Source: Geosiphon pyriformis (lineage: Eukaryota > Glomeromycota > Glomeromycetes > Archaeosporales > Geosiphonaceae). Taken from it: a stretch of 64,000 bases of DNA. The position numbers and the translations under genes were made by a program. The stretch is taken from the NCBI GenBank assembly GCA_016748015.1, contig JAAOMT010000699.1, forward strand, positions 1-64,000. Reading direction: 5' to 3'. The number at the start of each line of letters is the position of its first letter. The first letter of the stretch is position 1. The notes under the pieces were generated by a model, which was given only the letters and a program-made list of their open reading frames with translations, did no database searches and was not told where the DNA came from. This document shows, one piece after another, positions 13,947 through 31,092 of this stretch.

Positions 13947-16383
13947 ATGTTTCGGTTAATCGCACATTTGAGCCATTTCAGAAAATTGTCTTTACGCTCT
14001 GGTATATTCAGAGGGAATCTCCATTTGTGTTGATGAATTCTTGAAAAAATGCTATCTTAACACAATAATTTATTTGCTGACTTGAAATAAACTCAAAAAG
14101 TACGTGCATTTAGCGCCACAGCTCTGAGATTAAACGAGGTTGAGGTTTTCGTTGATGGGCGTTCAGTCAAGATTGAACAAGGAAGTGCAGTGATTCAAGC
14201 TTGTGAACAAGCTGGAGTGACAATACCACGTTTCTGTTATCATGAGGTATCCTTTAGATTTTTACTGAAAAGCCTGAAAGGGAACGAAAATACTTCAACT
14301 CTCAAACCTAGTTTCCTAAATCTAGCGTTTATCTATCGCCGGTAATTGCCGAATGTGTTTAGTGGAATTAGAAAGATCCCCTAAGCCGATTGCCTCTTGT
14401 TCAATGCCAGTTATGCCAGGCATGAAAATTAAGACTGATACTCCACTTGTGAAAAAAGCTCGTGAAGGGGTAATGGAGTTTTTATTGGCGAATCATCCAT
14501 TGGATTGTCCTATATGTGATCAGGGAGGAGAATGTGACTTACAAGATCAAGCGGTTCGATATGGTAGTGATCGTGGAAGATTCCACGAAGTAGCCGGCAA
14601 ACGTGCTGTAGAAGATAAAGATTTTGGGCCTTTAGTAAAAACGACCATGACAAGATGCATTCATTGTACAAGGTGTGTTCGATTTGCAACTGAAGTTGCT
14701 GGAGCCCCTGAATTAGGGACAAGTGGCCGAGGTAATGATATGCAGATAAGCACATATATTGAAAAAACACTTGATTCAGAAATGTCAGCCAATATTATTG
14801 ATTTATGCCCCGTTGGAGCGTTGACAGCAAAGCCTTATGCATTTTCCTATCGTCCTTGGGAGTTAAAAAGAACAGAATCTATTGATATCTTGGATGCCAT
14901 TGGGAGTAATATTCGAGTTGATTCCCGCGGTGTAGAAGTTATGCGTATTTTACCAAGAATAAATGATGATATCAATGAGGAATGGATTTCAGATAAAACC
15001 AGATTTGCATTTGATGGGTTAAAGAGACAACGTCTCACTACACCCTTAATCCGTCAAGGTGATAAGTTCCTACCAGCCACATGGGAAGAAGCTTTGCATA
15101 AGGTCGCTAAAGAAATTAAGAATGTAAAGGGTCCCGAAGCCAAGGCTATAGCTGGGCAGTTGGTTGATGTTGAAAGCCTTGTTGCTTTAAAAGATTTGTT
15201 TAATCGAATCGGATCTGACAATTTTTCCATCGATACACCCAACGGTTCCAAATTGCCAGCTCATGGTGTTGATTTTAGATCAAATTACTTGTTAAATAGC
15301 ACAATAGCGGGGGTCGAAGAAGCTGATGTACTTTTACTAGTCGGCACAAATCCACGTCATGAAGCACCAATTCTGAATACTAGAATTAGAAAAAGTTATC
15401 TTCATAATGGATTAGATATTGGTCTTATTGGTTTCTCAGCTGATACAACATATGAATATGAACATATTGGAACTAATAGCCAAGCACTTGAACTTTTATT
15501 ACAAGGATCACACTCATTCAACAAAAAACTCAAAGAAGCCAAACATCCTTTGATAATAATTGGGAGTGGAGTTTCAGAACATCCTGATGCAGAATTTGTG
15601 TATTCAGCTGTGGCTCGATTGATTGAAAAATATCAGGACAAATTCTTTCAAGATAGTTGGCAAGGATATGGTGTATTGCAAAGAAGTGCAAGTCGTGTTT
15701 CTATATATGATATCGGATTTATCCCGTCGGAACATTCACTTGATATTCGGCCAAAATTTATTTATCTGTTAGGTGCAGATGAGATAAATCCTGAAGATAT
15801 CCCTAAAGATACATTCGTTGTATATCAAGGGCATCATGGTGACATAGGGGCAAATTATGCAGATGTAATATTACCTGGTGCCGCTTATACTGAAAAGAAT
15901 GTCACATATGTAAACACTGAAGGCCGAGCTCAGACAACCCGGGCCGCAGTTCCTCCTCCAGGTGCTGCACGCGAAGACTGGAAGGCAAGTTAATTATTTC
16001 TTTTCGCAGCTACAATTTTTCAATATTTCAAGTAGTAGATCTAAATGTGAAAATTTTAATTCTAGATAATTCGTGCTCTATCCGAAGTTGCTGATGTGAA
16101 GCTCCCTTATGACGACTTAACCACTTTAAGAGAACGTCTCGAAGACATTGCCCCACATCTGACCCGTCATGATATATTGGAAATCACTACGAAACCAGAA
16201 ATTGGTCTAACCCAACTTAAAAATCAATGGGGAACAAAGCAATCATCTGGTGTCAATTTCAATCCAGTAGTACAAGATTTTTATATGACTGATAGCATTT
16301 CCAGAGCAAGTCAGACCATGGCAAAATGTTCGGCCGCTTTTACTCGAAAAACTTCATACAACCAAGAAACATTGCATATATAA
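13947..16383 (+). CDS. NADH:ubiquinone oxidoreductase 75-kDa subunit (NDUFS1 homologue)
   Basis: This is the iron-sulfur subunit of mitochondrial complex I that carries clusters N1b, N4 and N5 in the matrix arm. Four exons are inferred: 13947-14001, 14101-14246, 14326-15984 and 16066-16383, giving 725 aa, normal for the family. The N-terminus [18 protein letters not shown] is a basic, Arg-rich presequence. Cluster ligands are visible as [28 protein letters not shown] and [10 protein letters not shown], followed by [17 protein letters not shown] and the molybdopterin-oxidoreductase-like domain. The C-terminus [21 protein letters not shown] is typical. Intron 3 (15985-16065) has a GC-AG boundary (AAG|GCAAGT...CTAG); no frame-preserving GT donor was found. 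The gene is isolated between AT-rich repeats but looks intact. Confidence 0.96.
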
Positions 16384-16763: not shown

Positions 16764-18780
16764 ATGACCACGACCAGAGCAAAGAATAAAAAAGCTGCAC
16801 CTGATATCTTTCCTAAGATATCTAATAAGATTTCAACCAGAAGAGCTCTCTCTGTTGTAGAAGCAACTAGGCAGAACGTTTTAGAAGCCTTCTCTTTACC
16901 CAGTGATCGTGAAAAGCTGTCTTTGGTAGCTACTAAAGCAATTTCCTCATCTTTGGCTGGTTTTTTACCAGTCAAAAAGACACACTTGGGTTAGTTCTAG
17001 TGTTGTCTCTATTCCAACTAAGAGCCCAAAAGTTTTTAATAATAGACCAGTTAACAAGCTGGTCTTCTCCTCTATAGCTTTTACATCTGGTGTTGCTAGC
17101 ACTTTTTCTTCAAAAAAAATGGTCAAAAAGACCAGAAGTTCAGAAAAGTGGAAGCAATTACTTGCCTCTGCTATTGTTACACCAAGATCAACCACTGGCT
17201 GTGTTGCCAAATGTGGTGTCTTCTAACAGATCTTTACCAGTTTTGAAAGCAAAACAATCTCTTTTTGTTGGGTCACCTGTTCTTAAGAACTGGACTGATT
17301 AAATGAAAACTAAATCCAGTTTCTGGTGCTACTTTTGGTGGTGCCTGGGAAACTATTTCTAGTCATCAAAGATTTGCTGGGTGGGTGGTCTTTACTCTGG
17401 TGCTTGGTGCTACTTTCAAGATCAAATTGGCTTATGTTTCAGTCTGTGCATGGTTTTTTGGGTGTGAAGTCAGTTGTAAAAGACAATGTAAAGCTCTTCT
17501 GTATGGAGTTTGCTTTCCAAATCTCTTTGGATGCTGTATTTTTGGTGGAGCTTACAAGTTCTGTTTACTTTGCCACTCTTAAAATTGCTAAGTCTTTGGT
17601 GGTTTCTGAGTTTGGTTCCTCTTCTATTGTTGTTGCATTGTATGATGTGCCTTTAAGTATATCTGCTGCTGATATTAAGACAGCTTTTAGTGTTTTTGGT
17701 GTAGTTGCTCATGTTGTGCTGAAGTCTGTTGGCATTTAACAATATGTGGTGGTTTATTTTAAGAAATTGGACTCTGCTGTGGCTGTTCTAAATCATTGGT
17801 CAGTTTTGGTGGGCAAAAATAGTGTTAAAATTCTTCCTTTGGTGAATCAAAATGAGACTATTCTGTTTCAAGATAGATTTAAGGCCAAATTGGTCAATTT
17901 TTCTTCTGGTTGCACTGCCTTTGAGATTAGTAATATGATTTCTCAGGTTGGTAGTTGGACATGTTTTATTCTTTAGTCTTCTGATTCTGGTCATTGCTTT
18001 CACTTTGCTTTGGTTATATTTGGCTTCCAAGCTGATTTGGACTTTGCTGTTGTCAAAACTGGTACACTAAGAAAGTGCTGTATCTGGTGGGAAATTCCTG
18101 GTTGTCAGCATTGTTTTTGGTGTCAAGAGTTAGGCCATCTGGCTACTGATTGTAAGGTTTTTTCACCTTCCTCTCCTAAGTCTCCTAAGGTATTTGCACT
18201 ACACTTTATTGGTTCTACATCTTATGCCAAAGCTTCTGCACCTTTGAGCTCCTCTGAATTTCCACCTCTGTTATTTCTTATCTTTTCTCCAATTGTTGTT
18301 AGTAATCCTTTGGTGCTGTCTTGGTTGTCTTCTTTAGAATCTGATTTAACTAAGCTTTCTGCTTTGGTTGAGTCTATTGTTAAACCAGTTGGTTCTATAA
18401 TCAAATTGTTTGAACAATTTATTAATAGAAATTTGGTCTTAAGCAGCAATCTTGGCCTTAAAGTCAATAAAGTTATGATACATATGGGTGTCTTTAGTAA
18501 AGTTGTTGGTAAGTTGAGAAAGAAAGTGGTTTTTTTAAAAAAGAAATGCTGTATGGAAGACGTTGATATGTCTGGTGATTTAGAGTTTCTGCTTATTGTA
18601 AATAATGATGTGTTTTCTAATTTGTTGTCCCTTTGGGAGCATAAGTCTGTTGATATTAAAACTAATCTCTTTAAAACTGCCGAGTGGCTAGTTGGATTGG
18701 TTTTTTGCAGTGCAACTCTGTTTTCTGTTATTCAAAAAATGTTATCTTTGGATAAGTTTTCTTTTATAGCATTAATGTAG
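16764..18780 (+). pseudogene. LINE ORF1-type protein with RRM-like and CCHC zinc knuckle segments (broken)
   Basis: The reading begins MTTTRAKNKKAAPDIFPKIS and runs with frameshifts and stops to a TAG at 18778-18780. An RRM-like stretch lies at about 17630-17740 (VVALYDVPLSISAADIKTAF then FGVVAHVVLKSVGI). An intact zinc knuckle CX2CX4HX4C (CFWCQELGHLATDC) is at about 18110-18155. The C-terminal part (about 18310-18780) contains ALVESIVKPVGSIIKLFEQF and looks helical. ORF1 proteins of LINEs bind RNA and chaperone it. The protein differs clearly from ORF1 of the element at 20440, so it belongs to another lineage sharing the 3' tail. Now non-coding. Confidence 0.75.
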
Positions 18781-18914
18781 TGTGTTTTTGACTGGTCTGA
18801 GTGGCTGATTACATATAGAAAGTACATCATTAGCACCTAGTTTAGATCACTTAGTTTGATGTATTGTACTAGATAGCTTTTGGGCCTCGCTTATTAAAAC
18901 TCAATAAAAAAAAA
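18781..18914 (+). repeat. LINE-family 3' tail (copy C) with poly(A)
   Basis: It contains GACTGGTCTGAGTGGCTGAT and CACCTAGTTTAGATCA, followed by AATAAAAAAAAAA. It aligns over its whole length with the tails at 27209-27340, 43819-43950 and 35876-36010. Confidence 0.85.
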
Positions 18915-18927
18915 ACATATTTAAAAT

Positions 18928-20425
18928 GAATAAAAATATTACATATAACTGGTCATCTAAACAAGTTTAAGACTATTTTACATTAATGCATTTTTTTTAA
19001 TTTATATTATTATACAAATTAGACCTATAAAGTCAATTTTTTTTTCCCAATACATAATAACTGTAATTTTATTTACAAACAATATTTTTATTGTTTTAGT
19101 CAAAATATTTACCATATTTTTTACATGGTTTATTATTACAAAAACTTATATTATTAATTTTTTAATCTTATTAATACAAGTTATAAATAAAATATAAACT
19201 AAGTTTTTTATAACAGTTTTATTTTATTAATGTGCTAAATGTTAATAATTTTACTCTTTTTATAAAGCTATTAACAAATTTTATAAGAATATTTATTACC
19301 AAACTAAATTAAACTTTAAATTTAAATTTTTAAAAATTATTTTTTAATTTTATGATTAAGTATAAAAAAATTCAAAACAGTATAATTACTTAACCAATTA
19401 TTTAAGCATATAACAACAAATTAATCAATTAATTTAAAACAACATATTTTAATATTTAAACTTCAAAAAAATTATTTTAAAAAGCAAAAAAAATAACTTA
19501 ATAATTTAAAACCAAAATAATTAAAATTTTAATATTTATAATAGTATTTACAATTTAAAGTTTTTATTATATCTGGTTTTTTTTGGGTATTGGTTTTAAT
19601 TACTATTATATTAAAAGTTTTTTAATCTTAAAAATTAAATAATTAAAAAATAAAACAGATTTAGTTAAAAATTTAACAAACAATTTGATTTAAAAAATAA
19701 TAATTTTTTTTAATTAAAAAATTTAATATTGTTTTTTTATTATAAAACAGTAAATTTTAAAATTATTAAAAAGTTCTTAAAATGTAAATTTATATAAAAT
19801 AACTTTACATTATTTTTAAAATCTACTTTAAAATCAACAAAATTAAATAATAATTAAAATACAATTTTTAAAAACATTAAAACAAAAATTATTTTTAACA
19901 ATTAATAATAATTTTTTAATAATAATAATATTAAAAAAATATTGTTTTAATTATTATATTATTAATTTGATTTTTTAAGTAAATAATACTATTAAATAAA
20001 ACAATAAAATAGTACTATTTTTCTTATATAAATATAAAGTAGCTTTTAACTATTAAAAAAATATTTTTTTGTTTTAAAATAAAAGTTTTTTTTATTTATA
20101 ATATTTTTTAAGCAATAATTAAAGGCAATTTTAATATTGTTATTATTATTACAGTATGAATTATAATACTTTATTTTGGTTATAAATAATAGTTTTTTTA
20201 TTTTAAACAATATAATAATAGTAATAATATATTTATTAATTATAAAAATAAGACAAATTATATTTAAACACATGTGTTTTTTTATTGTTTAATAAATAAA
20301 ATTTAATTATTATTTAGTATATAAAAACAAATTAAGTATTTTTAATTAGACTTAAAAATATATTACGAGATTTGGAATCAATCATTATCATCAAAATATA
20401 ATCAATATACAACTATTTAATTGAA
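18928..20425. other. AT-rich desert without genes
   Basis: Nearly pure A+T with many TAA triplets. The open frame at 20046-20273 (minus) is low-complexity Asn/Ile/Lys sequence and is not supported as a gene. Confidence 0.6.
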
Positions 20426-20439
20426 AAATTTAAACATAT
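20426..20439 (+). repeat. Target-site duplication, left copy, of the full-length LINE
   Basis: AAATTTAAACATAT recurs exactly at 27341-27354, directly after the poly(A) of the LINE. A perfect 14-bp match at the expected position supports insertion by target-primed reverse transcription, although both copies are AT-rich. Confidence 0.7.
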
Positions 20440-20594
20440 TTAATATTAATTTATTATATATTTTTTATTTTTTCTCTCGTCAATCCCCTGACCATAGCGA
20501 GAGCAAGAAGTAAATTGATAGAATAGCTTTCTTTTTTTCCTTTTTCCCCCTTCATCTTAAAGTTATTTCTCTCAATACATCCCTTTTTGTTAAT

Positions 20595-22519
20595 ATGGAA
20601 CCGACAGGCTCTTATGCTAGTAGTTCAGGTGGGTTTGGGGACCTGTTCTGGTGTTAAATCTAAACGCTTGGCGAGTGCTCACTCACGTGGTGCATCCTAC
20701 AAGAAACCTAAAAAGCCTGTTGCTGTCGGCAGTATGATTAATACGTCTGCTGGCCCTTTCAGCTTGGAAGATTTGGGTGAAGCTGGTGCCAAACCTGCAG
20801 TGTCTTGGGGTAGCAATGTCGGTAATATAGCAAGCAGTATGAATGGTCTTTCGGATGCGGAAAATATGACAAACTTGGTTACTGAAGAAACAAGCTATGC
20901 GGAATCTGGTAAGGACGATAATATGGATGAAGCCACGCCAAAGAAAACATGCACCAGGATGTATGCTTTGGGCAATCCAATGAAGCAACCCCTTTTCGAC
21001 AATGTGAGTGATGACAATAGTGCGCTAGAGCTCCCTCCTTGTTTGCTTAGTGATTCCAATCAATTTCGTGTCACGTGCTCCAGAGAAACAAAGCTTTGAT
21101 TCAACAAAATTTTTTGCTCTTGATATTGAACTTTCTGTCGTTCCTGGCAAAACCAATAATGATAAATTGATCAGTTTGAAAAAAAATTTTTATCACATTG
21201 ATGAATTTGGGGGAGTCTCAACTCCCTCAAAATTCTCAGGGATCATCAAATCCTCCTTTACATCTGAAATTAGTTTGAATAAGACTAGGAAAATGGCAAT
21301 TGGTAAGAAAATTTTAGTCAATGATAATCTAAGAAAAATGGGTGTCCATTCAGATTGGGAAGTGATAGTCAAGAAGATCCCAGTGAATCTTCCCAGATTG
21401 GCAGTAAAGTCAGTCTTTTCCAAATTTGGCAAGATTGTTTCAATCAAAATACAGCTGGTTGGTCTCTGGCAAAAGATCCTGGTTGAATTTGAGTCATCTA
21501 AAGTAGCTAGTCTGGTTGCTTCCAAATGGTCAGTCCTCATGGGAAAAGATTCGGTGCATGTGGCTTTGGCAGTTAGTGATAAACAAATGTGGGTATCAAG
21601 AGATCAGCATCGGGCTTTGCTTTATACTCTTTCGGTTGGCACCAATGCTCATGATCTTTCCAGTTTGATGGAATCATATGGTGGGAAGACTTGTTTCATT
21701 GGCTATAATCCTAATTTATATGTTCGTGATAGATGTGCTGTAATTTGTTTTGGTGATAAGGTGTCCAAGTTGGCTGCTATTGGTACTGTTCCAGTTTTCA
21801 AGGGTGTGAGTTTGCATTGGGCTGGTCTTTCTTTGGCCAGTTGTACTCATTGTAAAGAATTTGGTTATGTTACGGTCAACTGTTCCTTAGGTAAGTATTC
21901 TGGTGTTTGTGGGAAGAGAGTGGTCTCTGAGCAAGATCAGATTCGTCTAGCTGGGATATATAAGAAAAAGTTGGCTCCTATTGCTCGTCCAGTCTCATTT
22001 GGTGGTAAAACATGGGCCCAAGTTGCTGGTGGCTCTTTTTCTCGTGTGATTCCCTCTGGTTTGGTTGGTGCTGGTTTGCATTCTGGTTTGGTTTCTTCTT
22101 CAATGATGACTGACTCTTCTACTGTTTCTCATTTGAATAACTGGCTGGCAATTTTAGAGTGCTCTTTAGAGCTTTTGACTGACCGCGTTTCTGGCATTTT
22201 GGTTCAACTGGAATCCATTGATTTGGTTCCTGTGGCAACCCCATCTCTGAGCCTTCTTCCTGCTGTTTCTGAGACTTTGACTTCTAATGTGAATTCTGAT
22301 ATGATTATGGATATTGCTTTGGTTTTGTCTGGTACTCTTTCATCTGTTGTTTATAATACTGTTGTTGAGCTCAGCTCTAGTAGTTCCAAAGTCTTCACTG
22401 CCAAAGTGGGTGGTTTGGAAACAAAATTGATTGCTTTAGAGGCCTTGGTTGGTTCAGTTTTAGATAAGTTAAATATTCTGTGCTTCTGGTTCAGGTTTGT
22501 CAGTTCCTCTGTCTTTTTA
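20595..22519 (+). pseudogene. LINE ORF1 (gag-like RNA-binding protein), frameshifted
   Basis: The ancestral start is probably the ATG at 20595 (METGSY-type start after correction for an early frameshift). The frame used at 20587-21099 covers GASYKKPKKPVAVGSMIN and an acidic region with YAESGKDDNMDEATP. A second frameshift at about 21050-21099 moves to the frame of the rest. Then come an RRM-like segment (VIVKKIPVNLPRLAVKSVFS, then GKIVSIKIQLVGLWQKILV at about 21360-21490), a degenerate zinc knuckle CTHCKEFGYVTVNC in which the His of CX2CX4HX4C is Tyr (about 21842-21883), and a C-terminal helical region. No stop separates ORF1 from ORF2 in this copy. Confidence 0.75.
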
Positions 22520-25500
22520 ATGACTCACTTAATTTGGAAAATTGCTGTGTGTAATGTCAGAGGTATGAACAATTGTATAAAGCAGGCAGACATTATATGT
22601 TGGCACAAGGATATAAACAATCTGGTCTCCATTGTTATTGAAACAAAGTTAAGAGGCATGGTTTGTCCGTGGATTGCCGATAAGTTCGATGGTGTTCATG
22701 TTTTTACTTCTGGTCTGGATTCTGGTCACATGGATTCTGGTGTTGCAATAATTATGAACTCTTCTTTAGCGAGGCACGTGTGCAAGATTTTGGAGATACC
22801 TGATCGGCTGTTGTTGTTAAGGCTGCTTTTTGGGAATAAACTTTCTGTGTCTATTCTGGGGTTGTATACTGGTGTGTTTTCAGTGGTTCGGGTTTCTCAG
22901 GCTAGTGATATTAATTCTCTTGTTGTCAAAGCTATGAATGAGACTTCTTTTGTTATTCTTGGTGGTGATTTTAATAAAGATGGGTCTCATAAATGTGCCA
23001 GTTTCAGAAAGTGTTTTGATTTGGGCCTGATCAACTCTCTAAGTGGAAGTGTTTTTGTGAAGTCTCCAACATGGTGCAATTCTTGTGGTGTTACCAAGAC
23101 AATTGATTACGTGTTGGTTTCCATTAGTTTAGTTAATGCAATCATAGATCGTAGTGTGATAGGTGTTGAGGATTTTTTTGATACTGATCATAAGGCTGTT
23201 TCCGTTTCTGTGGGTTTGGGTGGCTTGCTTGACCCTCAGCTAAATTTGATGCACAAGCAGGCTAATAAAGATCATTGGAAATTCAATTTTGGAGATGCTG
23301 GCGAAAAAGGGTAGAACAATTTTAAGAATGCTACATTGGCCAATAGCCTAATGTGCTCGAGTGATTTTGCTGCTTCTGTGGAATCTTCAGATTTGGATGC
23401 TATGTGGAACATTGTGCACAAAATAATGACTCTTTCAATGGTTGGGACATTTAAGAAGAAATGGTTTAAGGGTTATGATGAGGTTTTTACCAAGGGTTCT
23501 TCTAGGTTTCACAAGCTTGAGCTGCTGGTATCCAAGCTGGTTAAGGCATTTCATTTGTTGTCTAGTGTGGAATTTGCGTCATTGTTGAATACATAAGAGA
23601 GGCTCGACATCAATGGTGCTTCAGTAGTTAAGTTTTTGTTTCTTTTGGGTTCCAATTTTAACATAATTTACTCAGCTCTGGCTAAGGCAAGGAAGTCTTA
23701 CCATTCTGCTAAGTTGCTAGAATCCAGATGTGCTGAGGAATTCCATATTAGGGCAGCTATTGATAGGAGGATAGAAAGTTTTGAATCAGACAAAGGTCAC
23801 ACCATCAGGAGTGGTTTGGAGCGTTTCTTTTGCAAAGTGGTTCTGGATCATCTGGTTGTGGGTAATGAGTTAATTTTGGAGCCCAGCTTAGTCAAGGCTA
23901 GGGTGGATGGGATCATGGAAGGCTGGACCAAGAAGCACAAAGTGGTGCCTGATATCTCTAATAATTGGTCTTGCCAATACAAGCCTTTGGAGTATGTTTT
24001 CGATGGTGCCTTTTCTGGTGTAATGTGTCCCATTGGTTTCAATGAGTTGTTCAGTGTGGTTTCTAGTCTGTCTGAAGACAAGGCTGCTGGTCTCTTTGGG
24101 ATTTCGAACAAGCTCTGGAAACACTGTGACAAGTCAATTTTGGATATGCTTTTGGTGCTTTTAAATTCTTGCTTGATTCATGAATCAGTGCTTAGTGCTT
24201 GGAAGAAAGCTTGGGTCTTAATAATTCCTAAGCCATATGAGTAGGAAGGGGTTCTTACAAACACCTGACCTATTGCCTTGATTGAAACTGCCTGCAAGAT
24301 TTTTTTCAAGATTCTTTCAGATAAGATCTTGTTGGCTTGTAGTACTTTTAATGTTCTACGTGGGGACAATTTTTCGGTTTTAAAGGGCATGACAACTCAG
24401 TCTCCCATTTTCGCCATTGGTTCAGTTATTAAGGATGCTTTGGAGAAAAATTGTAAGCTCTGGTTGGTCTTATAGAACATGCAGAAAGCTTATGATTCTG
24501 TTGGATGGGAACACCTTTGGGACAGTTTGGTTAGAATAAAAATGTGCAGCAGATTCATTAGGTTTTTTGGCAGCATCCACAGTGGTCGCGTTAACAGAGT
24601 TATGACAGATTTTGGTTTGACGGATGAGTACAAGGTGTATGATGGCTTGGACCAAGAGGAGGTGTTCTCACCACTCTTTTGGGGCATATTTTATGATCTC
24701 TTTTTGTGTAAAGTTAAGAGACAGACAGATGGGTGTGGTTATAGAGTGAATTCTCATTTTATTTCTGGATGTGGTCATACTGAGTTTCGAGCTAGTGTAT
24801 TTTCATTTTTTGCAGTGAGTGCCTTTGTTAATGATACTATATGGGTTGGCAGCAGTCAAAGTACTACACAGCACATTCTTAATGTTGCTAGTGAATTTTT
24901 CGATATTAATAACATCTCAATTAATAATAATAAGACTGTTGCCATCCCCATCAATTGTGATGGTATGGCTTCCTCTTTGTTGATCAGTGGGTTACCTATT
25001 TCTGTTGTCAAGAAGGGGGAATCGCATTGCTATTTGGGGATCTATTTGTCAACTGAGGGTCTTTCGAAGCCTAGCTTGGCTAAGGCACATTTTGATGTCC
25101 AGTTTTTTTCTAATTTGGTTCTAAAAGAGGCAGTATCTAATAAGCAGTTTTCATATTTGGTTGTGGCGGTCTTCTTTTCTATCGTTAAATATAGAACACA
25201 GTTCAGCTATATTCCTATTAATGTTTGTAGGAAGTGAGACACTTTGATTCATAAGGGCTTGAGATCTAAATCTGGTTTGCCACATGATTTCCTTAATGAT
25301 GTGATTCATCACCCCTCTCTGTATGGTTTGAAGACTTTTGAACAGGTTCAGGCTGAGAGTAAATTGGCTTTGGTTGTTTCTTTCGTGAACTCTGTTGGAA
25401 TTTTGGGGTGTCTATTTTCTCACTGGTCACATGATCTACAGGTTCTCTGCTGGCGTCTGCTACATCCTCTACAGTATCCAGTTCATGTCAAGGTCAATCC

Positions 25501-27208
25501 TCTAAATAATTTTCTGGCAGGTGTGGTGCATATTTTCTCTGGGTGTGATTTGTCATTGGGTGGCTCTCTGGTTAGTGCTTTTCATCAGCAGGGTAGAACC
25601 TCTATGTTCTTTGTTCTTGGTGAATCATGTTATGTCAAGAGTGTCTCTTTACTTTAGCATTATGGGATAGCTTTCGTAAATCAGCTGTGGGACTGAAATG
25701 GAGCTGTTTTCAAATGGAAGACCTTCAAATGGTGGAAGTGGTTGGACCCACGTGGTCTGGTTCCTGCCTGGTTTGAGCTGTCCATTCGTTTTCTTGAAGG
25801 TGTGTCTTCTTCTCTTGTCTGTTCCATGCTTTTGGCTAGTTGCGACTTTTCGGATGTTCTTCAGTCTCGTGAGTTTGGCATCATTAGTGCCAGTTTGTTT
25901 GATTCCGATGTTGGTCGTCTTTCTGTTTATACAAATGGATCTCTAAGTAATTTAGGGACTGTTGATATGAAAACTGGAACTGCTGTTTTCTTTGAGAACA
26001 TTGATATGGGTTTGGGTGTAGAAGTATCTGGTTTGATGTCTTCTACCTTGACAGAACTGATGGCCATTGCTCTGGCACTCGAGTGCATCCCTTCTTCTTA
26101 CTCAGGCAACTTGTTCTTAGACAGTCAGACTGCTTTGGATGCTTGCAAGTTGGAGATGGAATTGGTTTGCCCAGATTTTAGGAATTAGTGTTGGATTGAA
26201 CACTGTCATATTGTGAATATCATTCATCGTAAAAATTTAAGAGTTAATTGGTGTAAGGTCAAAGAACACTCAGGGGTTTCAGGCAATGAACAGGCTGATA
26301 AGTTGGCAAGGACTACAGCTCTCTCTGGTTGGCATCTGCCCCATTTTGTCAATGAATGCTATCTAAGGGGTGGTGGTGCAGCTATTTCTGGTAATTCTAG
26401 GCATTTTGTTTGAGATGTTTTTTGGTCTGTTCATTATGTGCATTGGGAAGTCAGTTGTGGCATTGGGGTGGTGACAAATAGTCTGCGTACAGATATTGAT
26501 TGGTTTAGGTTGTCGCTGGTTTGGGATCCAGATTCTCACATGGCTGCTGGTTTTACTAGCAAGCAGACTGCTGGTCTCTGGACTTACTTTATGAAGGCAT
26601 TGCACCATCAGCTCCCGGTCGTCATGTGTAAGCGGCTTTATGATAAGTGCTACCCTAGTGTGGTGTATTTGTTCTGCAGTGATGTTGAGGTCTCTGACCA
26701 TGCTTTTTCTTGTTTATTTGATGCCAATAGTTGTGTTCAGTTGTTGGATGCTTATGTGGCAGTTTGAGGTGTGCACTCCGGTCTGGCTCATTCTTCTTCA
26801 GGTGTTTCGCAGCTGCTGTTTACTTGTGTGTCTAACATTTCAGTTAGTACTGCTCTGTACAAAGATTTTGTTTTCAAGGATTGGTTTTGTGAATCTGTTT
26901 CTGTCTTTAAGGATTTCAGAATAGCAAGTCAAAACATTGTGGCCTTTGTGTGTGAGTTCAACTTGGCTTTCTGGGAAGACATTTGGTTGGTTCACACCAA
27001 GCACCATGTATTTATGGAAAAAAATGGGCTTATTCTGTGCGATGGATCTGCTCCTGTTCCAATTTTTGGGCTTTTTTTAGGGCTGTCATCTGGCATAACC
27101 CGGTTGCTGGGTGTTGCTGAGGCAATTGGTGTTGGTTTCAGGTTTCATAAGTCTTGTTTGTTTTTTTTAGACATAGGGGGTGAGGTCTCTGTTTATATAG
27201 ATGCTTAG
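22520..27208 (+). pseudogene. LINE ORF2 (APE endonuclease, reverse transcriptase, RNase H), 11 nonsense codons
   Basis: ORF2 starts at ATG 22520 and stays in one frame for 1,563 codons to the TAG at 27206-27208. The endonuclease opens with WKIAVCNVRGMNN and has SIVIETKLRG and LGGDFNKDG (about 22540-23200). The RT region includes PIALIETACKIF, FNVLRGDNFSVL, KAYDSVGWEHLW, EEVFSPLFWGIFYD and the catalytic motif AFVNDTIWVG. RNase H has SVYTNGSLSN, TELMAIALALE, LFLDSQTALDA and SGVSGNEQADKLA. Internal stops start at 23312, 23594, 24242, 24266, 24473, 25235, 25655, 25694, 26186, 26411 and 26765. The second Asp of the RT core motif region and the first Asp of RNase H read as Asn. Not functional. Confidence 0.9.
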
Positions 27209-27340
27209 TGTTGTTTTGATTGGTCCGAGTGGCTGGTTACATGTAGATAATGCATGATTCACACCTAGTTTAGATCATTTGTATGATGTATTGCACTAGG
27301 CAGTGTTTGGACTTTGCTTGTTAAATGTTAATAAAAAAAA
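27209..27340 (+). repeat. LINE-family 3' tail (copy A) with poly(A)
   Basis: This least-decayed tail reads TTGATTGGTCCGAGTGGCTG, then CACACCTAGTTTAGATCA and GCACTAGGCAGTG, and ends AATAAAAAAAAAA. It is probably the RNA region recognised by the element's reverse transcriptase, as for other LINEs; that role is inferred. Confidence 0.85.
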
Positions 27341-27374
27341 AAATTTAAACATATATAATTATTAAAACAATAAA

Positions 27375-29172
27375 AATAAATTGATAGAACTCACAACATA
27401 GATCTTTCAAATCAAATTTTATAACTCTCAAAACAACTATTTGACACAATTCAACAATCTACTACTCAAATAGAAATTACTATTAACAAAAAAGAGATAC
27501 AATATAAAGATAGAAACAGAAAAGAGGTGGATAAAAATTCAACTAAAACTAAACAATCCTATCCTTATAAATAACTTTCCATCCTGGTAATTGGTGCTCT
27601 ATACAACAATCAAGAAAAAAAGAGGATAAAAAAAAAGAAAGAGATATGTTTTAAACAAAGCTTGACACAATTAAAAAGAAAAAGAAAGTAACAGAAATAA
27701 ATATGTGTTAAACAAAACTCAAAAAAATTAAAGAAGCTTTTAGTAGACAAATATTGGAACCAGTAACAGAAAAATGAACAATAGAAAACTTCAAAGTATG
27801 AAAGAAAAAACTACTATTAGTCTACTGGTTCTATAAGATTGGTAAACAACTAAAATTAAGTACACTATACAAAAACCTCAACTATTAAACATTTAATAAA
27901 ACAGTTCTTAAACAAGTAGAAGAATTCATAAGAAGAAGCAACTTAATACTAAATTATAAAGCAATATACTGCTTATATTCAGTATTCAAATACTGTTTAA
28001 CCATACTACTAAACAGCTTGTTAACAATTATTACAATTAACAACATAGAATGAATAACAAATACACAGTTTAAAAGCCTACAAAAAGCAATATTTAACAC
28101 AACAATTAAATACTACACAGAAAATACAACTATTACAAATATATATGATTTTGTAAAAGCTTAATTCTAAAAAGAAAAGGATAATATTATCCAAATAAAA
28201 AAACCAATTCAAAGTTATGAAAAAAACATGACCAAACATGTGTTAACATAAAATAATACAAAATAATACAAAAGAACACAAAATAACATGTAATAATTTA
28301 GAATAACATAATACAAGATTTGATAACATATTATAACACAAAATAACTAATTAAAATATAAAATAACTAGTAATAATATAGAAAAACAAGGCAATCACAA
28401 AAATAGTAAAACAATAGTTAGCAAGAATAAAATAAAAAAAACAATCCTGTAAAACCAAAAAGAATATATAAAAATGAATAATTATAAAAATTAGAAGAAC
28501 AGCAAAACAAGAATTAATTTTCTCTTTTTCTTATAATTATTTTACAAAAAAATAAAAAGACTTATTTGAAAACCTAAAATCCTTAATATATAGTCATCAA
28601 TTATCCTAAGCTGAAATTAAACTAATCTTTGTTTCATACTTTTGTTTTAAAACAGATGCTTTTAGCATAAATACTTTAAATTTTTAACAATCTAAACCAA
28701 TTGCTTTTGATCATGGCAATTAATAATACTAATTTATTTTCATTTATTTTTTATTTTTTTTATTTTTTTTTATTTTATTTTCTCTTGTGAAGTGGCAACA
28801 TAGAAAAATCAACTGTCTAAGAATAGATTTTGTGATAGCCTGGTAAAAAAAAAAAGCTTCTCTTAAGTTTGAATATTAACATTATTTTGGTAACTTATCA
28901 GAAGGATAAAAAGACACTGCCAGATCCTAATAATTGCACTTGTTAGCTTAAAAAAAATAGTTTACATTTACATATAAGAAGTTGTAACACCACAAAACAT
29001 CTTTCTGTGCCTTATAATCAAAGAATTTTATGGATAAATACACAATCTAGAAAAACCTTCAGAGACTGATAACCAGAACCAGCCATACCACAAAACCAAT
29101 TAAAAAGCTTTTATTACTCAAATTAGAGCACTAAACATTACCATCATACCCCCAAGTTTACTCATAACAATG
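27375..29172 (+). repeat. Inverted repeat, left arm (about 1.8 kb)
   Basis: This arm is an imperfect reverse complement of 29288-31092. Matching anchors include TTTGACACAATTCAACAATC (about 27451) against GATTGTTGAATTGTGTCAAA on the right, AATTGCTTTTGATCATGGCA (about 28700) against TGCCATGATCAAGAGCAATT (about 29747), and GATAGCCTGGTAAAA against TTTTACCAGGCTATT. The middle has short AATAACA-type tandem motifs (28240-28400). No intact gene is seen; short Lys/Glu-rich stretches resemble the minus-strand peptide at 30762-30986 of the other arm. Confidence 0.85.
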
Positions 29173-29287
29173 TATTCTTATTGACATAGCTAAACTGAAT
29201 TCTATACACAATAATTGGCTGGAGAACTACTGAAACCAAATAAGAAAACTGCTTATTTAATATGACCTTGTGTAAAATCATTATTAC
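29173..29287. other. Spacer at the centre of the inverted repeat
   Basis: About 115 bp without clear self-complementarity separates the arms. Limits are estimated by eye. It could be the junction of two head-to-head element copies. Confidence 0.5.
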
Positions 29288-31092
29288 AAGTAAACTTAGT
29301 AGGGTAGAGAGATGATAATTTTTGGTGCTCTCAATTATTGGTAAGGTGTATTTTACATAATTCTGGTGGCTTAATCTTGATTATCAGTCTCTAAAAGTCT
29401 TATTTTACTGATTGTGAATTTACCTATTGAGTTTTTTGGTTATAAGGCACAGAGTTTTGGTTCTTGCTGATTGCAATTTCTTATAAAAGTGAGCTTTTTT
29501 CTTTGAGCTAACGAGTACAGTCATTAAGGTTTGACATTGTCTTTTCATCTTTCTAGTAAGCTATCAAGATAATGTTAATATCCAAAAACCTAGAAAGAGC
29601 TTTTTTCTTTTACCAGGCTATTACAAAGTCTATTTTCAGATAGTCAATTTTACTATGTTGTTATTTCACAAAAGAAAAATAAAGAAAATAAAAGAAAATA
29701 AAAGAAAAAAAAGAAAATAAAAGAAAAGATAAATTAGTATCATCAATTGCCATGATCAAGAGCAATTGGTCTAAATTGTTAATAGTTTGAGATGGTTATG
29801 CTAAGAGCATCTGTTCTGAAATAAAGATATAAAACAATGATTAATTCATGTAAATTCTACAAAGTTTGAAAACATGAATTTGTGATTCTGATTTCTTAAT
29901 AATTGATTTATTTTAGAAGATGAATATGGAATATAAATGATGAAAGAGTATGGATATTTGATTCTTGTTTAGTGGTTTGTATCTATCTGTCTGCTGTTTC
30001 TACCTTTTACAACTACTTGCTTTTATACATTTTTTTGGTTTTATAGAATTGCTTTTGATTGTTTCATTATTGCTAACTATTGCTTTGTTATTTCTGTTAT
30101 TGCTTTGTTCTTCTATGTTATTACTAGTTATCCTATGTTATAATACATTATTTAGTGTTATTATGTATTATTATGTATTATTTCATGTTGTAATATATTA
30201 TCCTACACTATTCTAAGTTATAATGCATTATTCAACATTATTACACACTATTCTGTGTTATGTTACATTCTGGTTACATTTCTTTATAACTTCAGATCAG
30301 TTTTTTTATTCGGGTAATATTATTCTTCTCTTTTTAGAATTAAGCTTCTGTAAAATTATATGTATTTGTTCCTATGTTTTCATTTATATAATATTTAATG
30401 GTTGTGTTGAGTATTGTTTTTTGTAGGTCTTCAAACTGTCAATTGGTAATTTGTTCTATGTTGTTAACTGTTATTGTCTTTATAGATCTATACAACAGTA
30501 TATTTGAATGATATTGGAAAGTGGTATATAATTAGTATGCTGCTTTGTAATATAAGGTCAGGTTGTTTCTTTCTACAAATTTTTCTACTTGTTGCATTGT
30601 TTCTTTGTTGAAAGTTTTCTGGTTGAAGTCTCTATATGGTGTCTTTAAGTCTAATTGTTTACCTATTTTATAGAACCAATAAGCTAAAAGAAGTCTTTTT
30701 TTCTATTTCTTTGCGTTGTCTGGTGTTTATTCTTCTGTTTTGGGAAGATCAATCTCACAAGCTAAAGCTTCTTTAATTTCTTCAAGCTTGGAAACCAAGT
30801 ATCTTCTTTTATAAATTTTTTTTCATTTCTCCACTCTTTCTTCAAGCTCTGCTCAAGATGATTTAATTTCTTTTTGTAAAATTTTTTTCTTGGGTGGGAT
30901 GTAAAAATAAGAATGGTTAGTTCTAATTGAATTTGCACCCATTCCTTTCTTGCTTCTATCTTTATAATGTATTTTTTCTCTATCAATTGTTACTTCTATT
31001 TAAGCAAAAGATTGTTGAATTGTGTCAAATAGTTGTTTTAAAAGTTGTAGAATTTGATCTAACAAGTTCATATTGAAAGTTCTATCATTTCT
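29288..31092 (-). repeat. Inverted repeat, right arm (about 1.8 kb), joined to gypsy relic
   Basis: It is the counterpart of 27375-29172. On the minus strand 30762-30986 encodes a broken Lys/Glu-rich peptide including ARKEWVQIQLE and KKFIKEDTWFPSLKKLKKL, downstream of the gypsy integrase. The arm therefore looks like the 3' part of the retrotransposon beyond pol. An AT-rich short tandem block with TTATGTATTA units lies at 30120-30260. Confidence 0.8.

Follow-up and report, generated by a model that had tools for sequence, protein, structure and literature searches.

A long interspersed nuclear element (LINE) in the genome of the fungus Geosiphon pyriformis carries a second open reading frame (ORF2) that is interrupted by 11 nonsense codons and by no frameshift, and copy alignments strongly support directed C-to-T damage, on both DNA strands, in several transposon sets. 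The element lies on contig JAAOMT010000699.1, within a stretch of 64,000 nucleotides (positions 1 to 64,000) referred to here as the window. The part of this damage that falls on CpG is expected of methylated transposons; the unusual part falls on other cytosines, has a context of its own and would be explained by methylation or else by a lack of repair. Judging from the sequences, it is somewhat probable that the cause is gradual deamination of transposon cytosines, at methylated CpG and at non-CpG sites preceded by a pyrimidine.

Stops and indels in the LINE copies

The genome searched comprises 124.7 Mb in 406 contigs. Its size and low G+C, at least 146 tyrosine-kinase-like matches (144 of 597 candidates scored) and its methyltransferase set agree with Glomeromycotina; an exact AML2 primer site is absent, which is compatible with arbuscular mycorrhizal fungi, since their rDNA may be unassembled. 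For the family of the window LINE, referred to here as LINE-1, 34 other ORF2 matches merge into at least 31 distinct copies (32 of 3,917 candidates scored), of which 23 were retrieved, so that the ORF2 alignment holds 24 sequences including the window copy. ORF2 spans 22520–27208 (4,689 bases), and its frame 0 has 12 stops, 11 internal (five TAG, five TGA and one TAA) and a terminal TAG, whereas the two other frames have 72 and 156. The ten ORF2 segments that an earlier note on this DNA had assigned to one frame therefore do form a single frame. That note had also derived the internal stops from Gln, Arg or Trp codons by C-to-T or G-to-A changes, and each of the 11 is indeed CAG, CAA, CGA, CGG or TGG in some sister copies; other codons found at these sites are TGT in two copies at 25235 and AAG in one at 25655.

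Stops occur in every copy, with 6–21 internal stops in each of the 24 aligned sequences, and they are scattered over 67 different codons among 21 LINE-1 copies. Those of the window are common to between 0 and 10 of the 22–23 other copies and none is present in all of them, as stops belonging to an active consensus would be. The inferred clade state has no stop in clades A and C and one in clade B. Because the stops are scattered and unshared and these inferred states are stop-free or nearly so, each copy seems to have been inactivated on its own, starting from a source whose frame was open.

Indels are rare in ORF2: 12 of the 24 sequences have no internal gap and the other 12 have one to three. 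Compared with the five closest copies among the matches listed (L001–L005), the window copy is 9.7–10.9% divergent, with 445–492 transitions against 12–20 transversions and with 0, 0, 1, 0 and 0 gaps over 4.7 kb (a single 1-base indel), far from equal numbers of transitions, transversions and indels. Transitions thus dominate, and to call the damage purely transitional, as had been proposed, is slightly too strong. The lack of frameshifts is more than chance: in a set of kinase paralogues described below, each pair, about 1 kb long, has 2–9 gap openings, against 0–1 per 4.7 kb of LINE. The claim of no net indel holds for ORF2 of the window and fails for the element as a whole, whose ORF1 carries two lesions, as listed here.

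20424–20439, no strand assigned: left target-site duplication AAAAATTTAAACATAT, an exact 16-base repeat with 27339–27354
27339–27354, no strand assigned: right target-site duplication, an exact 16-base repeat with 20424–20439
20440–27338, forward strand: full-length non-long-terminal-repeat retrotransposon (the LINE), about 6.9 kb, between the two duplications, with at least 31 other ORF2 copies
20587–22519, forward strand: ORF1 region, broken by the loss of 8 bases at 21065 and the gain of one base at 22484 (alignment with L001–L005)
22520–27208, forward strand: ORF2, free of frameshifts and interrupted by 11 nonsense codons in frame (frame count and copy alignment)
27209–27338, forward strand: 3′ untranslated region and start of the poly(A) tail

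The A run of the left duplication may overlap the element’s poly(A), and the same duplication search at L001–L005 returned only low-complexity matches of 10–13 bases. A match to the reverse-transcriptase family RVT_1 at 24479–25237 (E value of 4.5e-5, 23.7 bits) lies under the Pfam cut-off of 29.6. Both ORF1 lesions are private to the window copy among the six aligned copies; the extra base brings the end of ORF1 into the frame of ORF2, and in the other copies ORF1 is in another frame. Over the 5′ module (window 20440–21100), the first ~600 bases of L002, L004 and L005 differ by 32–41% from the window and those of L001 and L003 by only 10–12%, with ORF2 about 90% alike in all five; the difference appears to reflect a swapped 5′ module.

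Cytosine changes in transposons and in a gene family

The direction of change is clearest in private and singleton sites. In the clade of six that includes the window copy, 114 changes are private to the window, of which 103 agree with the outgroup majority; these comprise 92 C>T/G>A, 5 T>C/A>G and 6 transversions. Singletons were counted in 21 copies, excluding L020–L022, which are too divergent and were tabulated separately; sites that were poorly covered or lacked a clear majority were left out here and in the per-site rates. Of 886 clean C/G sites, 432 carry a singleton transition, as do 71 of 2,171 A/T sites; transversions affect 44 of 3,057 sites. Both strands are affected in all 21 copies (per-C 0.173 and per-G 0.146 in the window copy). 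In each of the 21, coding-strand C is changed more per site than G, by about 3% (L005) to 58% (L011).

The effects of these changes look neutral. Where the neighbouring bases are near-fixed (206 of the 432 singletons), the changes comprise 132 missense, 65 silent and 9 nonsense, against expectations of 128, 63 and 14, and C>T changes in the window copy are spread evenly over the codon positions (109, 122 and 121). Between inferred clade ancestors, when the element was active, the transition/transversion ratio is 2.6, 3.9 and 4.8 with a third-position excess. Copies that are 15% diverged from each other still show 653–695 transitions against 28–37 transversions.

The same excess is found in other transposons. 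For a second family, LINE-2, 17 of at least 39 other copies were retrieved together with L024 (40 of 3,374 candidates scored), and L040 and L041, an outlying subfamily with 48 and 42 transversions, were dropped from the rates. The remaining 16 copies have 74–282 C>T/G>A changes against 1–13 transversions per copy, and the two outliers 298–311 against 42–48. Per-site rates in the 16 copies, with polarity taken from the column majority as in the kinases, the foldback family and the LINE-3 comparison, are 0.183 at CpG, 0.063 at non-CpG, 0.0013 for A/T>G/C and 0.0008 for transversions. The LINE of L024 (G000:C238) stays open for at least 1,133 codons in the piece retrieved, despite 74 C>T/G>A changes. 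A third set, LINE-3, of 12 loci picked among the reverse-transcriptase matches of the genome, shows 61–117 transitions against 2–16 transversions in the 25 closest of its 66 pairs.

A foldback family, represented by the window copy and eight retrieved copies, has a transition/transversion ratio of 11.7 over 36 pairs. Its window member (27470–30950) has arms that are about 70–80% complementary and many partial genomic copies at roughly 79–86% identity; it contains no ORF of 130 amino acids or more.

Serving as the gene control are ten kinase paralogues, a query and its nine best matches (45 pairs, non-coding flanks included). At 5.3–10.9% divergence they show 1,358 transitions and 1,838 transversions (ratio 0.74), with neither a CpG effect (0.018 at CpG, 0.021 at non-CpG) nor a pyrimidine effect. 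The non-CpG rate exceeds the reverse transition 49-fold in LINE-2 and 16-fold in clade A, against 3.5-fold in the kinases. Because the LINE sets and the foldback family show the transition excess and equally diverged kinases do not, the decay targets transposons, within what a single gene family can demonstrate. A 1.6-kb region of the window, considered as a further control for multi-copy genes, was dropped, its sole match being itself.

CpG cytosines are changed most: in clade A their rate per site and copy is 0.39 under deamination polarity and 0.29 under majority polarity. CpG is also depleted in ORF2 (observed/expected 0.27) relative to the rest of the window outside the LINE (0.72). At non-CpG sites of clade A (deamination polarity), TCA and TCC are near 0.16–0.17 and ACA, GCA, ACT and GCT near 0.05–0.06; a 5′ pyrimidine is preferred 1.5–1.9-fold in the transposon sets and 1.0-fold in the kinases. 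No 5′ T preference is seen at CpG in clade A (TCG 0.369, ACG 0.424, CCG 0.408, GCG 0.362), and no CpA preference, the non-CpG rates by 3′ base A/C/T being 0.089/0.101/0.078 in LINE-1 and 0.054/0.076/0.062 in LINE-2. The unusual finding is that the changes are not confined to CpG: slightly over half lie elsewhere (1,115 of 2,029 in clade A; 1,581 of 2,954 in LINE-2), so CpG methylation alone is insufficient. Individual LINE-2 copies have 58–184 non-CpG and 44–128 CpG changes, with CpG commoner in 4 of the 16.

Tempo and competing explanations

In the 16 LINE-2 copies a load of C>T changes proportional to transversions fits (chi-square 13.8, p = 0.54, 34 C>T per transversion) and a constant number of transversions is rejected (p = 0.005). 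CpG and non-CpG hazards correlate across these copies (rho = 0.93), at a ratio of 2.8–5.5:1. Strand runs, scored at non-CpG sites only, are near chance in 37 copies (z of −2.4 to 1.9). An apparent strand clustering (z down to −3.5) largely disappeared after CpG sites were removed and is attributed to a simulation that treated the two cytosine positions of a CpG, one on each strand, as independent. Tandem CC>TT changes of the ultraviolet type show no clear excess (42 against 45.5, 79 against 78.4 and 71 against 60.1), and of 32 copies scored for patchiness two have p ≤ 0.05 (L035, 0.005; L026, 0.05), with clade B outside the test. Because the loads fit a clock, both contexts rise together, and strand runs and tandem changes are near chance, the evidence speaks for a gradual process acting on both contexts rather than tract-wise mutation. 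A burst is not needed to explain the loads; repeated weak repeat-induced point mutation (RIP) remains compatible with them.

Two truncated copies, among 12 further 3′-end loci, retain 607 and 945 bp of the element and are both heavily loaded; the shorter (L064, the shortest copy retrieved) has 67 changes in 472 sites, the highest load of 30 copies. L066, L068 and L069 were removed from this comparison (about 78–79% identity).

Enzymes that might methylate these sites appear to be encoded. Of ten matches to the methyltransferase family PF00145 in the genome, L043 resembles PDB entries 9bap and 9baq, which we take to be Neurospora DIM-2 (their label reads only ‘DNA (cytosine-5-)-methyltransferase’), and has a match to the BAH domain; L046 looks like L043 by eye. 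L044 matches DNMT1 and BAH, and L045 and L047 carry the motif PPCQPYT, presumably DNMT2-like. L042 has no BAH match in four scanned segments and resembles chains of DNMT1 and DNMT2 more closely than 9bap/9baq; it is a candidate RID/Masc1 gene. A second PF00145 match lies at C318:820713. DNMT1-like, DIM-2-like and BAH-less genes thus appear to be present, and a passage of PMC8298701 states that arbuscular mycorrhizal fungi (AMF) have DNMT1, DNMT2, DNMT5, DIM-2 and RID.

Under gradual deamination, copies of the LINE and of other transposons would lose function after insertion mainly through C-to-T deamination on both DNA strands. A DNMT1-type enzyme would keep transposon DNA methylated at CpG, and DIM-2-like or RID/Masc1-like enzymes would methylate non-CpG sites at lower occupancy. 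The methylcytosines would then deaminate to T and escape efficient repair, and nonsense codons would arise from CAG, CAA, CGA, CGG and TGG.

Several observations weigh against this reading. C>T changes and transversions in LINE-2 show no significant rank correlation (rho = 0.44, p = 0.09), and among the 12 least mutated copies a constant number of transversions (p = 0.93) fits as well as a proportional one (p = 0.41). The ratio of the non-CpG rate to the reverse transition is low in clade A (16-fold), the foldback family (8.3-fold), the 21 LINE-1 copies (6.1-fold) and LINE-3 (4.8-fold) against 3.5-fold in the kinases, and LINE-3 and the kinases have equal transversion rates (0.014 and 0.015); we infer that saturated or mixed-subfamily sites were polarised wrongly and that LINE-3 is a mix of subfamilies. 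The foldback family gains indels (7.8 gap openings per pair), and the kinase control is one gene family, under selection. Stops in LINE-1 number 6–12 against context-model means of 13.4–15.9 (s.d. 3.2–3.3), and nonsense singletons 9 against 13.7 expected; because stops are fewer than the context model predicts, some changes may have been inherited from source elements that were still functional.

The rival that survives best, which we hold to be unlikely, combines CpG methylation with poor repair in transposon heterochromatin: uracil from unmethylated C would go unrepaired and accumulate at the chemical rate, and methylated CpG would change a few times faster. 5-Methylcytosine deaminates two- to four-fold faster than cytosine, and the hazard ratio of 2.8–5.5 is near this factor. 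Poor repair needs no non-CpG methylation and suits the scarcity of patches and strand clusters and the clock-compatible loads; by itself, however, it does not predict the 1.5–1.9-fold preference for a pyrimidine before C. Methylcytosine in Rhizophagus irregularis, measured by liquid chromatography–mass spectrometry (LC-MS), exceeds the stated fraction at CpG (mCG), which would also tell against poor repair provided that the two fungi belong to the same clade.

RIP in the strict sense, in which premeiotic scanning of paired repeats by a RID-type enzyme leads to bursts of mutation, is slightly more doubtful again. It would account for C>T changes on both strands of repeats and for the sparing of gene paralogues in the one family tested; the BAH-less L042 and the DIM-2-like genes could supply the enzymes, RID is reported from AMF in part of PMC8298701, and the constant-transversion fit of the least mutated LINE-2 copies suits bursts. 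The context, however, is CpG and then a pyrimidine before C (YpC) instead of CpA, and both RIP indices, whose calculation had been proposed, are negative for ORF2 of the window (TpA/ApT of 0.71 and (CpA+TpG)/(ApC+GpT) of 1.46, by the usual thresholds). Neither the strand runs, the tandem changes nor the patchiness favours it, LINE-2 loads form a continuum (74–282), and decay continues in copies 15% diverged from each other. Of the two causes put forward in the earlier note, 5-methylcytosine deamination fits the CpG part, and RIP proper lacks support from context, indices, strand runs and patches; tabulating substitutions by context upheld the C>T/G>A direction and yielded CpG then YpC in place of the CpA of RIP.

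Editing of the retrotransposon, for example of its cDNA, by an APOBEC-type cytosine deaminase would agree with the preference for 5′ T or C at non-CpG sites and is very improbable: cDNA editing should give mainly plus-strand G>A, both strands are affected, the small bias runs the opposite way (per-C above per-G in all 21 copies), and the foldback family, probably not a retroelement, shows the excess too. Equally improbable is assembly error through modified cytosines miscalled as T in long reads. Methylated cytosines can bias nanopore basecalls, yet about 39% of inferred CpG cytosines per copy are changed in clade A, clades are supported and polarity follows an outgroup, LINE-2 loads are graded from 74 to 311, and the LINEs have few of the indels that such reads would add. 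Ordinary neutral decay, or purifying selection that holds the frame, is scarcely credible despite the conserved frame and the slight deficit of stops, since all 24 aligned sequences have stops, missense and silent changes are as expected without selection, the transition excess extends to a foldback element without a sizeable ORF in the window, and gene paralogues stand at a ratio of 0.74 with many gaps.

Relation to known systems and neighbouring features

The decay shares with RIP of Neurospora and other Pezizomycotina (RID/DIM-2) the C>T changes on both strands of repeats and the creation of nonsense codons, and related methyltransferase types appear to be present; it differs in its CpG and YpC context, negative indices and lack of tracts or strand runs. 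The RIP-like CpG hypermutation of Basidiomycota (Rhizoctonia solani AG8, and Microbotryum at TpCpG) is likewise CpG-biased C>T, and that of Microbotryum lies in transposons. According to sections of PMC4014442, genes are also hit in R. solani, unlike the kinase family here, and many of its changes are non-CpG (a ratio of CpG to CpH, H being A, C or T, of 0.3–0.4 in Table 2); Microbotryum has, as stated in part of PMC5381629, a 5′ T preference at CpG that is absent here. The Basidiomycota systems also differ from the Geosiphon decay in that slightly over half of the changes here are non-CpG. Methyl-CpG decay of silenced transposons in mammals and plants similarly removes CpG from the transposon and not from DNA such as that surrounding the LINE in the window; here non-CpG sites are lost as well, with a hazard roughly one quarter that of CpG.

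In AMF, passages of PMC8647823 describe R. irregularis transposons as generally highly CpG-methylated and put mCG sites at 13.8% of genomic cytosine, below the 32.5–49.5% of cytosines found methylated by LC-MS in a passage of PMC8298701. Gigaspora margarita is said in part of PMC7082362 to lack RIP, and a passage of PMC8647823 reports its signatures as undetected. A 2025 screen of 1,239 genomes describes RIP-like k-mer signatures as unique to ascomycetes (PMC12543289); the word ‘Rhizophagus’ is absent from its main text. Among the titles and abstract openings listed in literature searches, none reports C>T transposon decay in AMF.

The LINE had an initial G+C content of about 48% and the rest of the window has about 30%. 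Because elements of ~48% G+C decay amid DNA of ~30%, composition screens would miss such decay; provided that the fungus belongs with the AMF, copy alignment reveals in transposons of this group a strong C>T process that composition indices do not register. Gradual deamination, if true, would imply that non-CpG sites in transposons are methylated about one quarter as much as CpG, which would partly account for the excess of 5-methylcytosine by LC-MS over the stated mCG fraction. More tentatively, an early-diverging and mostly symbiotic fungal lineage may possess a transposon defence, run by RID/DIM-2-type enzymes, in which cytosines of every context (CpG and pyrimidine-C) are marked and destroyed; it would be related to RIP, but slow, not aimed at CpA and outside Ascomycota. 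A dependence of the decay on sex becomes testable, which bears on the question of ancient asexuality.

Two further features lie upstream of the LINE in the window. The 3′ end of a related LINE (18778–18915), about 8.4 kb upstream, is 78–83% like the tail of the window LINE (families D5 and D9), and 14353–15993 holds an ORF for a protein that resembles the 75-kDa subunit of mitochondrial complex I (NDUFS1/NuoG-like).

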